64,000 nucleotides of DNA, taken from Halobacteriales archaeon QS_4_69_31. GTDB taxonomy: Archaea; Halobacteriota; Halobacteria; Halobacteriales; Haloarculaceae. Location of the stretch: NCBI GenBank assembly GCA_003021655.1, contig PXRP01000014.1, forward strand, positions 62,001 to 126,000, written 5' to 3'. Position numbers and translations under genes: made by a program. Shown here piece after piece: positions 3,464-54,170 of this stretch; within the stretch, counting starts at the first letter, position 1, and each line of letters starts with the position of its first letter. The notes below the pieces were generated by a model that ran no database searches, was not told where the DNA came from, and saw nothing but the letters and a program-made list of their open reading frames with translations.

Positions 3464-4452
3464 CCTGTCACCTCCCGGTCTGCGAGCGGGTTGGCGCGGC
3501 TAACGGTCAACTCCTCGATGGTGTGAGTGGTCGTGCCGACCGAGAGCGTGACGCCGCCGGCGTCGGCGTGGACCTGCAGGTCGACGTCGTCGGTGGCGTC
3601 GCCCGCCGGGCGGCCGGCCCTGGTCAGCGCGAGCAGTTTCAGGACCTCGTCGCGGTGGTCGATGCCGCTCCCGACCGGGACGCGCCCGGACGGCGCCCGG
3701 ACTTCGACGGCGACGTCGACGTCCAGTGCCATGACGGCCAGACTCGCGGCGGCGGTCGCCATCTCGTCGGCGTACCCCGACTCGCAACTGGCCGCGATGA
3801 CGACGCTGTCCTCGATCCGGCGGTCGGCGAACTCGGTGACGTACATCTCCTCGGGGTCCTTGGCGGTGGACTTCCAGTGGACGTCCCGGAGCGGGTCGCC
3901 GGGGACGTACTCCCGGAGGGCGTCGAACTCCTGGCGCTCGACGGCGTCGCGGTCGAGCACCTTCTCGAGGATGCGCTCGCGGCCGGCGAGCTGGTGGACC
4001 GACGGGTACACCAGCACGTTCGTGGTCACGCGCGTGTCGAAGCGCCGCTCGACGAGCCCGAGCACGTCAGAGACGGTGACCGCGAGTGGGCCGAGCTTGT
4101 GCCGGCCCCGCTCGGCGAGCGTGACCGTGTACCCGAGCTCGGTCGGCAGCGTCGTCTCGTCGCTCGCGCCCTCGGCCACCAGGCCGTCGGCCGCCCCGTC
4201 GGCGAGGGTCGCGACGCCGCGGCCGTCGGCCACGACGCTGACCTCGCGCGTGTCGCCGGGGAACCCTGGCGAGACCGCCGAGCGGTCGACGGTCGGTTCG
4301 TCGGCCCGGTGGACCTGGACGACCGCCCCCAGCAACGCGACGAGTACAGGTGCGACGATGGCGTTGAGCGCCTGGGCGCCGAAGGCGAGCGCGAACACCT
4401 CCCCGACGACCACCAGGGCGACCACCGCGTAACCGCGTCGTGTCAGGTTCAT
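3460..4452 (-). CDS. DUF58 domain protein
   Basis: A 330-residue protein with two N-terminal hydrophobic segments (residues ~8-45) and a C-terminal DUF58 region marked by LREYVPGDPLRDVHWKST, the family signature. DUF58 proteins have a von Willebrand A-like fold and sit beside MoxR ATPases. The ATG at 4452 overlaps the moxR stop (TGATG); a GTG one codon upstream is an alternative. Its own stop overlaps the next ATG. Translational coupling of the three genes is likely, and a MoxR-assisted maturation role is inferred from the conserved gene order. Confidence 0.9.
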   Translation of the reverse strand: MNLTRRGYAVVALVVVGEVFALAFGAQALNAIVAPVLVALLGAVVQVHRADEPTVDRSAVSPGFPGDTREVSVVADGRGVATLADGAADGLVAEGASDETTLPTELGYTVTLAERGRHKLGPLAVTVSDVLGLVERRFDTRVTTNVLVYPSVHQLAGRERILEKVLDRDAVERQEFDALREYVPGDPLRDVHWKSTAKDPEEMYVTEFADRRIEDSVVIAASCESGYADEMATAAASLAVMALDVDVAVEVRAPSGRVPVGSGIDHRDEVLKLLALTRAGRPAGDATDDVDLQVHADAGGVTLSVGTTTHTIEELTVSRANPLADREVTG

Positions 4453-5948: not shown

Positions 5949-6740
5949 TCAGCTCACGAACAGCCGGCGGTCGGCGCGCTCGTGGTCGGCGGCGAGCACG
6001 TCGACCAGGGGGGTGAACATCGTCAGGTCGGCGAGAGAGCGGCCGGCGCTGGTCTCGACGGCCTCGACCATCGCGGGCTGACAGTCGACGACGACGCGCT
6101 GGGCGTCGGTGTGGCCGAACGCGAGCAGCCGCTGTGCGGCCCCGACGACAGCGGTAGTGAACTCCTGGCAGGCGACCAGGCAGGCCCGTCGCTGGCCGAC
6201 GCCGGCCCGCGCCGCGACGGCACCCAGCACCGCGGGATAGGCGCCCGGCACCTCGCCGGCGTCGGCCAGCGCGGCGTACTCCGTGACGAACTCGTCGTCG
6301 CGCAGGTCCGACTGGAGTCTGAGCAGCCGCCCCCCGGTGCGGGTGGCGCTCTCGCGGAACTCCGCGGGGAGCGTCGCCGCGTCGAGGCGGCGGTCCGCCG
6401 CCGTGACCGCCGCCAGGTCGCCGTCGGCGGCCCCCTCGTGGGCGGCCCGGAGCGCCACCAGGTCCCCCGGGCCGAGTTGCCGCCGGAGGACACTCCCCAG
6501 GAGAGCCGCGAGGTCGTCGGCGTCCGTGACGCGGTCGGCGGCGACGAACTGCTCTATCCCGTAGGAGACGCTGTCGGTCCCCACCGGCAGCGACGAGTCC
6601 GCCAGCCGTAACGAGTCCAGCACCGCCGCGTCGGCGGCCCCGCTCGCGTCGCCCGCGTCGTCGACCCCGGCCGCGTCACCCGGGTCGTCGGCCCCGCTCG
6701 CGTCACCCGGGTCGTCGGCCCCGAACGCCTCGTCGCTCAC
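5949..6740 (-). CDS. ureF: urease accessory protein UreF
   Basis: 263 residues. UreF acts in the UreD-UreF-UreG complex that delivers nickel to apo-urease and is thought to gate UreG GTPase activity. The conserved core starts near residue 40 (DSLRLADSSLPVGTDSVSYGIEQ) and is almost entirely helical. Ahead of it is an unusual N-terminal extension of repeated Gly-Ala-Asp-Asp-Pro-Gly-Asp-Ala units (about three copies, residues 6-37). The GTG start overlaps the ureE stop (GTGA). It is the last gene of the urease operon. Confidence 0.9.
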   Translation of the reverse strand: MSDEAFGADDPGDASGADDPGDAAGVDDAGDASGAADAAVLDSLRLADSSLPVGTDSVSYGIEQFVAADRVTDADDLAALLGSVLRRQLGPGDLVALRAAHEGAADGDLAAVTAADRRLDAATLPAEFRESATRTGGRLLRLQSDLRDDEFVTEYAALADAGEVPGAYPAVLGAVAARAGVGQRRACLVACQEFTTAVVGAAQRLLAFGHTDAQRVVVDCQPAMVEAVETSAGRSLADLTMFTPLVDVLAADHERADRRLFVS

Positions 6741-50528: not shown

Positions 50529-50680
50529 AGGGGAACCTGAGGCGGCCACCACCGTCAGTCTGACCCCGCCGGCGGGCACGACCGGGGCGACGCCCGGAGC
50601 GAACCCGACCGCGACGAGTGTCCGGGAGCCGAGTTGTGTCTGACGTAAAATACAAACCGACAGCGACCGGGATAGAGTGT

Positions 50681-51040
50681 ATGGGACTGATGAGCAAGAT
50701 CCTCGGGGAGTCAGGCGGCGCCCGAAAGAAAGAAGACTACGTCGAGATCAACGGCGAGGCGGCGGACACCCAGCCGACGGCCGCCAGAACCGAGGTGCGG
50801 ATCGCCAAGATCGGCGACAAACAGGACGTTATGGACATCAAAGACGCCGTCTACGACGGCGACGTGGTCATCGCGGACATCACGCGCCACACCACGCAGG
50901 ACCGCACGATGGAACACATCACGGACGAACTCAAGCAGGTCGCCGACGAGGTCGGCGGCGACATCGCACAGAAGGGCGACGACCAGCTTATCATCACGCC
51001 CCACGGCGTCGCCATCAACCGCGACCCGCTGGGCCAGTAG
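50681..51040 (+). CDS. sepF: cell division protein SepF
   Basis: A 119-residue archaeal SepF, the membrane anchor for FtsZ at the division site. It starts MGLMSKILGESGG, a short amphipathic membrane-targeting helix. The SepF core follows: TEVRIAKIGDKQDVMDIKDA, DGDVVIADITRHTTQDRTME and QKGDDQLIITPHGVAI. Start ATG at 50681 with a TATA-like TAAAATACAAA (50646-50656) about 25-30 bp before it. No ftsZ1/ftsZ2 in the window; the CetZ homologue lies 11 kb away. Confidence 0.93.
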   Translation: MGLMSKILGESGGARKKEDYVEINGEAADTQPTAARTEVRIAKIGDKQDVMDIKDAVYDGDVVIADITRHTTQDRTMEHITDELKQVADEVGGDIAQKGDDQLIITPHGVAINRDPLGQ

Positions 51041-52690: not shown

Positions 52691-52929
52691 TGTCACATCA
52701 TCCCCGCGTGCGCCTCATAAGCGTACTGCTTAGCCGGCCGCCGTGACTCCGCGGTGACACCGCGACCGCCGACGCGCGGCGCGCGCCCGACGACCGACCA
52801 CCGGGCCGGCCCGCTCCGGGAGCGCCAGCGGTCGGCGTCGGTCCGGGTCGCGCGACCGGCGGCCCGGTCGGACTGGTGTGGCCGGGAGAGAGGGATAAAG
52901 ACAAGACCCGGCCGGCCGAACTGGGCGGT

Positions 52930-53223
52930 ATGCGGGCGAAACCGGAGTTCCGCGACCGCGACGAGACCGAGGTCGCGGTTCTGGACGCGCTGGCCGACCG
53001 GCGCGAGGAGGGGATGACCGTCTTCGAACTCCGGTCGCGGGTGGACGTGGACATCGACCGCCTCGAGGCGGCGCTGGCCGACCTCAAGGAGGACGGCCTG
53101 ATAGAGGTCACCAACGACGACGAACGGACCGTCATCGTCCCGGAGGAGGGGGTCGTCGGCCCGGTCGACCCCGACGACGACGAGTCGTTCATCGACCAGA
53201 TCCGCGAGCGACTGCCGTTCTGA
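52930..53223 (+). CDS. DUF6432 winged-helix-like protein
   Basis: 97 residues: MRAKPEFRDRDETEVAVLDA, then DRREEGMTVFELRSRVDVDI and LEAALADLKEDGLIEVTND, a winged-helix fold with a turn and wing, ending FIDQIRERLPF. Matches haloarchaeal DUF6432. DNA binding is plausible from the fold but untested. Downstream, between this gene and the convergent PHP gene, lies the 80-bp palindrome. Confidence 0.78.
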   Translation: MRAKPEFRDRDETEVAVLDALADRREEGMTVFELRSRVDVDIDRLEAALADLKEDGLIEVTNDDERTVIVPEEGVVGPVDPDDDESFIDQIRERLPF

Positions 53224-53299: not shown

Positions 53300-53332
53300 C
53301 CATCACGAACGCCCCAGGGGGTCGGCCCGTTC

Positions 53333-53412
53333 ATACTGCCGGCTGTAACTTCGTGAAGATATTCGCCACCCCGGGGTGGCGAAATTCTTTACAGACTTAC
53401 AGCCGGCAGTAT
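53333..53412. repeat. 80-bp imperfect palindrome between convergent genes
   Basis: Arms ATACTGCCGGCTGTAA (53333-53348) and its exact complement (53397-53412) enclose a central perfect 22-bp palindrome TTCGCCACCCC|GGGGTGGCGAA (53362-53383). All is centred on 53372.5; 34 of 40 base pairs match. The right end touches the stop codon of the PHP gene. It could be a bidirectional terminator, a protein-binding site or a small mobile palindromic element. Confidence 0.85.
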
Positions 53413-54170
53413 CAGTAGCAGTTCATCGCGGCGAAGCGGTCGTCGTAGTCGGGGTGTTCGGGGTGTGTCGGTTCCACCCCGGAGAGGACGACCCGTTCGA
53501 ACTTCTCCCAGGAGTTCTCCCAGCCGAGGTGGCAGAACTCGGCGCGGCACTTCAGCGTGTGGACGAGGCCGTCGCGGTGGTACATTCGGCGTGGCGCTCC
53601 CGACCGGAACGCGTCGACGAGGTCGGCGGCCGACTCGACCGCGCGGTCGAACTCGACCCAGACCTCCCCGACCGTGGGGGTGACGTGGGCGTACGAGGAG
53701 AGGTAGGTCGGGAGCCCGCTCTCGCGGGCGATCTCGCGGGCGCGGCGGTTGTCCCGCGGCCAGTGTTTCGGGTTGTAGACCTCGACGGCGTCGATTCGGT
53801 CGGCGTAGGCCGCGATGTCGTCGCGGTCCATGCTGAGCGTGAGAAACTCCGGGTGGGGCGCGAGCGCCGCCGCGTCCTGGTCGTCGAGTTCGGCCATCGT
53901 GTCCGCAAGCGAGAGGAAGTCCGGGACCGGGGAGTCCGGGTCGACCGCCAAGACGTGCTTGCGGTTCGACCACGTCCCGGTGAAATACTCCCTGGCGGGC
54001 ACCACCAGCAGGTCGTCGTCGGTGAACCGGGCCGCGCGCTCGCGGATGGTGTCGATGTGCTGGAAGTGGGGCGCGTAGACCAGCACGTCGATCCCGCGGG
54101 CTTTCGCACGCGCGACCACCCGCTCGCCGAGGACCTTCACGTGGGGGTCGACGCTCGTCCCGCCGGCCAT
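53412..54170 (-). CDS. PHP-domain metal-dependent phosphoesterase-like protein
   Basis: 252 residues of the PHP superfamily. Metal ligands visible: SVDPHVKVLGE, VLVYAPHFQHIDTI, LLVVPAREYFTG, LAPHPEFLTLS and YLSSYAHVTPTVGEVW. The N-terminal DPHVK replaces the classic DxHxH, as in related haloarchaeal members. A C-terminal PHP-associated region has GLVHTLKCRAEFCHLGWENS with two cysteines. Substrate unknown. The ATG is at 54170; its TGA abuts the 80-bp palindrome. Confidence 0.83.
   Translation of the reverse strand: MAGGTSVDPHVKVLGERVVARAKARGIDVLVYAPHFQHIDTIRERAARFTDDDLLVVPAREYFTGTWSNRKHVLAVDPDSPVPDFLSLADTMAELDDQDAAALAPHPEFLTLSMDRDDIAAYADRIDAVEVYNPKHWPRDNRRAREIARESGLPTYLSSYAHVTPTVGEVWVEFDRAVESAADLVDAFRSGAPRRMYHRDGLVHTLKCRAEFCHLGWENSWEKFERVVLSGVEPTHPEHPDYDDRFAAMNCY

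Follow-up and report, generated by a model that had tools for sequence, protein, structure and literature searches.

A 78-bp palindromic element of haloarchaea, probably a MITE-like mobile element, with a preference for CTNAG targets and host stop codons

Some IS5-family groups and PIF/Harbinger elements generate 3-bp target duplications of the TNA type at a palindromic, CTNAG-like target. Human MADE1 and pneumococcal RUP are palindromic MITEs of ~80-107 bp that are of the mariner/IS630 type and duplicate TA. Within the haloarchaea, SMR-A and SMR-B of Haloquadratum walsbyi are ~110 or 80 bp long with inverted ends unlike those of any known transposon, reportedly making no target duplication and targeting other mobile elements (PMC3119063). 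PATEs and IS605-type elements, which are palindromic and abundant in haloarchaea, have neither inverted ends nor a target duplication (PMC3119063), while REPs, which with BIMEs are short extragenic palindromes in high copy associated with RAYT transposases, measure 20-40 bp and mostly carry a GTAG or CGTC tag (PMC3733652). A review of prokaryotic MITEs makes no mention of stop codons (PMC10969869).

The palindrome described here lies in a stretch of 64,000 nucleotides from Halobacteriales archaeon QS_4_69_31 (the window), in which an earlier note had reported an 80-bp palindrome at 53333-53412. Recounting gave the same 34 of 40 paired positions, and the perfect 22-bp palindromic centre is present at 53362-53383. 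The outer arms, given as 16 bp, are perfect, but the arms proper comprise 15 bp, the 16th pair belonging to the target duplication and being automatic since any TNA duplication supplies such a pair. The element itself spans 53334-53411 (78 bp), with the 3-bp direct repeat TCA on both sides, 80 bp being too long because the outermost A-T pair comes from the two TCA copies. As originally described, it sits at convergent gene ends, between a DUF6432 gene on the plus strand (ending at 53223, 107 bp ahead of the left target copy) and a PHP-domain gene on the minus strand (ending at 53412), with the parts of the locus arranged as follows.

52876-53223, plus strand: DUF6432 protein gene, convergent (Pfam DUF6432, E 8.7e-41)
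53331-53333, no strand: left-hand TCA of the target duplication, with the same trinucleotide at the other side
53334-53411, no strand: palindromic mobile element of 78 bp, present in the genome in four copies with differing flanks
53334-53348, plus strand: left terminal inverted repeat TACTGCCGGCTGTAA, nearly invariant across the family
53349-53361, no strand: asymmetric subterminal segment CTTCGTGAAGATA, with mismatches at largely corresponding positions from one family to the next
53362-53383, no strand: central 22-bp palindromic core TTCGCCACCCCGGGGTGGCGAA, the pairs of which change on both sides between families
53384-53396, no strand: asymmetric subterminal segment, GTCTGTAAAGAAT when read on the minus strand, with a GTCTGT motif
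53397-53411, minus strand: right terminal inverted repeat TACTGCCGGCTGTAA, nearly invariant across the family
53412-53414, minus strand: right-hand target duplication, reading TCA on the plus strand, which is the TGA stop of the PHP-domain gene
53412-54170, minus strand: PHP-domain protein gene, the stop codon of which is the target (Pfam PHP_C, E 2.5e-16)

The subterminal mismatches, being similarly placed across families, make the two ends of the element distinct, and GTCTGT is also seen in further families, for example those of TACGGTCGG and TAGTGACC. A gene for a SepF-family cell division protein also lies near the element (window 50618-51040; Pfam SepF, E 3.7e-15). Secondary structure, suggested as a check when the palindrome was first noticed, is pronounced: in a 120-nt context the RNA folds at -60.1 kcal/mol (z -7.2 against shuffles), while for DNA the value is -31.3 kcal/mol (z -10.3 against shuffles), with no shuffled sequence folding as well. 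On the minus strand of window 53331-53415, Rfam mir-627 scores 29.7 bits (E 0.0007), below its gathering score of 86, and this sub-threshold score most likely reflects the hairpin shape rather than a real miRNA.

The palindrome is not unique, a BLAST search of its own genome returning four full copies. The other three (C42:28604, C26:116182 and C26:113328) are 96-98% identical and occur in both orientations, and the four lie at unrelated sites with flanks shared only in the 3 bp on each side, which form a target duplication of TCA/TCA at three copies and TGA/TGA at the fourth. Scanning public genomes, one per prokaryote species, for exact matches to both arms identified 92 stretches, all haloarchaeal by title, with 96 distinct copies, giving 100 distinct copies with the four from the window's genome and haloarchaea as the only hosts. 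A perfect TNA duplication flanks 90 of the 100 (TGA 35, TCA 34, TAA 12, TTA 9). Within the order, strict matches occur in 43 of 392 genomes and 16 of 95 genera, and similar DNA is present in 83 of the 146 genomes of the family, the other 63 being without a detectable copy. Among close relatives copy number ranges from zero to ~100, with 164 arm matches in the relative G062, which is probably a Halomicrobium, and 102 in G060. Viral contigs yielded no two-armed copy and 34 single-arm matches, a number not above chance expectation, and phage collections yielded no match.

Shortened copies of ~34-41 bp were also seen (L203:830-864 and 1237-1277 in G062, and L065:7048-7081); these apparently arose through loss of the inner palindrome, and two of the three retain the TNA duplication. 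Elsewhere an element of the TACTGCCGG family is nested at a TNA site within an arm of a TACGGTCGG-type element (L065 ~6332-6500, G001:C1:16785-16950 and L096 ~3536-3700).

Twenty G062 sites were joined minus the element and searched for in three relatives. Eleven of these loci are uninterrupted in sister DNA (G060 and/or G059), with a single intact TNA at eight of the eleven empty loci, as where CAAGTGA[element]TGAGGC in the occupied site corresponds to CAACTGAAGCC in the empty one. At the window locus, the PHP orthologue of 29 relatives ends without the element after the stop, as judged by reading the sequences. Comparison of occupied and empty sequences thus establishes mobility and 3-bp staggered insertion, and the mobile palindromic element envisaged in the earlier note is supported by four copies in the genome, exact 3-bp duplications, empty sister sites and spread through the Halobacteriales.

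The feature is most probably a non-autonomous, protein-less, MITE-like mobile element of 78 bp that is mobilised in trans and constrained in its length and fold-back shape. In keeping with MITEs, it has perfect 15-bp inverted ends and a constant TNA duplication (90/100 copies, with single TNA at empty sites), lacks a transposase gene, is only 78 bp long, and is multicopy and intergenic. It differs from them in being shorter than most and palindromic almost throughout, in keeping its inner palindrome across families, in that no parent IS was found in ~2.7 Mb, and in a target duplication that often coincides with an in-frame stop codon. Like the SMRs (PMC3119063) it is haloarchaeal, of similar size, with inverted ends and no known mobiliser, but it makes a TNA duplication and favours gene ends; it is set apart from SMRs by their published description. 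The TNA duplication is shared with the IS1031-like group of IS5, for which no cognate transposase with matching ends was found in the genomes and stretches examined, while MADE1 and RUP differ in duplicating TA, the empty sites of the present element showing no matching TA. A literature search with the end sequence returned matches unrelated to haloarchaea, and the element is apparently undescribed in the open papers searched.

An unbiased scan of 400 kb of G001, assuming only TNA repeats and inverted ends, recovered 21 elements, 19 of which measure 77-80 bp. They fall into at least five sequence families (TACTGCCGG, TACTGGTGG, TACGGTCGG, TAGTGACC and TAGTGGTT), and G062 holds further families (TACGGATTA and TACGGACGG). 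Common to all is a plan of 77-80 bp with a TNA duplication, arms of 15 bp, an asymmetric stretch in which the breaks fall at similar positions, and a palindromic core that is paired, showing that length and palindromic architecture are shared by families of differing sequence. Across ten representatives both sides have changed at 23 of 38 pairs, the two-sided cells number 67 where shuffles give 27.6 +/- 4.0, and the covariation score is 0.461 against 0.183 +/- 0.020 in shuffles and 0.07-0.14 in slid pairings; sequence relatedness inflates such counts, the slid controls sharing that relatedness. This between-family covariation of the arms spans most of the length, including the core and not the ends alone. 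Within the TACTGCCGG family alone arm covariation was not beyond chance, and the between-family pattern could also be obtained if hairpin-templated repair homogenised the arms.

These data bear on the closest alternative, that of a classical MITE derived from an IS by deletion, in which only the terminal repeats count, the inner palindrome being incidental. This keeps mobility and target duplication, departing from the preferred explanation only on the role of the core, and it is a possible though less probable account. A MITE is defined by its inverted ends and fixed target duplication, and the middle is less palindromic in a related family of 107-109 bp with TACTGTCGGACACAAGT ends. Against it, families with unrelated inner sequence all retain 77-80 bp and a covarying paired core, and a parent with these ends was not found in ~2.7 Mb. 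The TNA-flanked, TACTGTCGGACACAAGT-ended element is itself present in the window's own genome (G000:C14:672-779, C37:1903-2010 and others; L396, L404) and very abundant in G137 and G138, near relatives of that genome, with 177 and 116 end matches respectively.

The search for a mobilising partner of the 78-bp element, by end pairs with TNA, took in 1.6 Mb from G062, 0.7 Mb from public loci and 0.4 Mb from G001; across these ~2.7 Mb neither a transposase nor an autonomous relative with such ends came to light. Some 30 PF01609 loci were examined, none having the element's ends, and neither PF13359 nor PF13340, two Pfam families related to IS5/Harbinger, was found in the carriers searched. Several candidate partners were rejected. 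The ends of a 1457-bp pair in G060 belong to two separate elements with a glycosyltransferase gene lying between them, and the paired ends in L065, L095, L113 and L122 are likewise separate neighbouring elements with host genes in between. The candidate at L243 proved to be an IS that had entered one arm of a copy, duplicating 10 bp (CTTTACGAAC), its transposase frame encoding a DDE_Tnp_1 protein of 458 aa (L243:1005-2500 in G001). G001 also contains a 1193-bp structure, in which an IS630-like element occupies the loop of an 80-bp element; the other copies of the IS630-like element lie elsewhere.

Four near-identical copies of an IS630-like element of 1113 bp, with ends GAGTGGTC.GCG and a two-frame transposase, were observed in G001 (L468, L476, L481 and L483). 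Each appears centred in an inverted repeat with no evident TA duplication, and it is possible that this element targets palindrome centres.

In 1.6 Mb of G062 the target is C-TRA-G at 23 of 54 insertions compared with 759 of 14425 control sites (5%), showing that CTNAG is the preferred target. Insertions outside genes also fall exactly on an in-frame stop codon in 28 of 52 cases compared with 1017 of 14425 comparable TRA sites (7%; odds ratio 15, p 6e-19), and the same coincidence is seen in the public loci (29/78 vs 264/2182) and in G001 (6/20 vs 252/3616, p 0.002). Genes were called by a home-made codon-usage model rather than from annotation, such that the intergenic control holds some uncalled genes; the one annotated plasmid copy agrees, its matched stretch overlapping the end of a CDS. 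Exclusive targeting of stop codons is rejected, about half of the copies lying elsewhere, and stop codons are favoured rather than obligatory. The odds ratio is 9 when the comparison is limited to CTRAG sites, 9.9 in convergent gaps alone and 3.3, no longer significant, with both restrictions together. The CTNAG motif accounts for part of the stop-codon excess, while survival of harmless insertions probably explains more of it, the protein being unharmed by insertion at its stop codon because the 3-bp duplication leaves the gene its stop.

Archaeal intrinsic termination depends on U-tracts. Given its position, the element might instead be a bidirectional terminator or an mRNA 3'-end hairpin selectively kept at convergent gene ends, since it follows stop codons, is over-represented in convergent gaps, forms a hairpin that is very stable on either strand and has one stem resembling a terminator, followed by a weak T-rich tail. 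U-tracts at the element are weak, however, orthologous genes and sister sites lack the element, about half of the copies lie away from stop codons, some copies lie between divergent genes, and the 3-bp duplications would be left unexplained. A terminator role is accordingly an unlikely reason for the presence of the element at the window locus.

A REP/BIME-like dispersed site bound by a chromosome-organising or other host protein is very improbable in spite of the near-invariant 15-bp arms and the numerous, chromosome-wide copies in some genomes, given that the family includes genomes with no detectable copy and others with ~100, that positions are not conserved between sisters and that target duplications mark every copy as an insertion; the binding site for chromosome organisation proposed in the earlier note thus finds no support, and the 78-bp length, TACTG ends and TNA duplication do not fit the REPs themselves. 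Equally improbable is derivation from a REP, PATE or IS200/IS605 element moved through single-stranded DNA by a tyrosine (Y1) transposase, for although the element is small, palindromic, intergenic and high in copy, and PATEs and IS605-type elements abound in haloarchaea, the latter lack the inverted-repeat ends and the target duplication (PMC3119063) that are found here, the duplication in 90 of 100 copies with empty sites in agreement.

For the MITE-like element favoured here, a transposase supplied in trans, of the DDE type as the target duplication by itself would suggest, may bind both ends through TA[CG][TG]G.....TGTAA and the asymmetric subterminal motifs and may join them to target DNA after a staggered cut of 3 nt at TNA. 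Mobility would need the fixed length and fold-back shape, our preferred guess being either that a set spacing of the ends is required or that the folded form is the substrate. Accumulation at gene ends would then combine the CTNAG preference, a motif commoner at stop codons, with the survival of insertions that spare the protein. A broader proposal, which is offered tentatively, is of a haloarchaeal superfamily of fixed-length fold-back elements whose folded form, hairpin or cruciform, could be the substrate of the mobiliser and for which stop codons could be a preferred, built-in harmless site.

The element is widespread in haloarchaea, many of its insertions being marked by duplicated host stop codons, and provides a clean natural system in which to ask how a tiny gene-less element moves and why its palindrome and length are conserved, as well as one for testing whether inserted hairpins reshape transcript ends. 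In compact genomes harmless sites are few, and targeting biased towards stop codons offers one solution.
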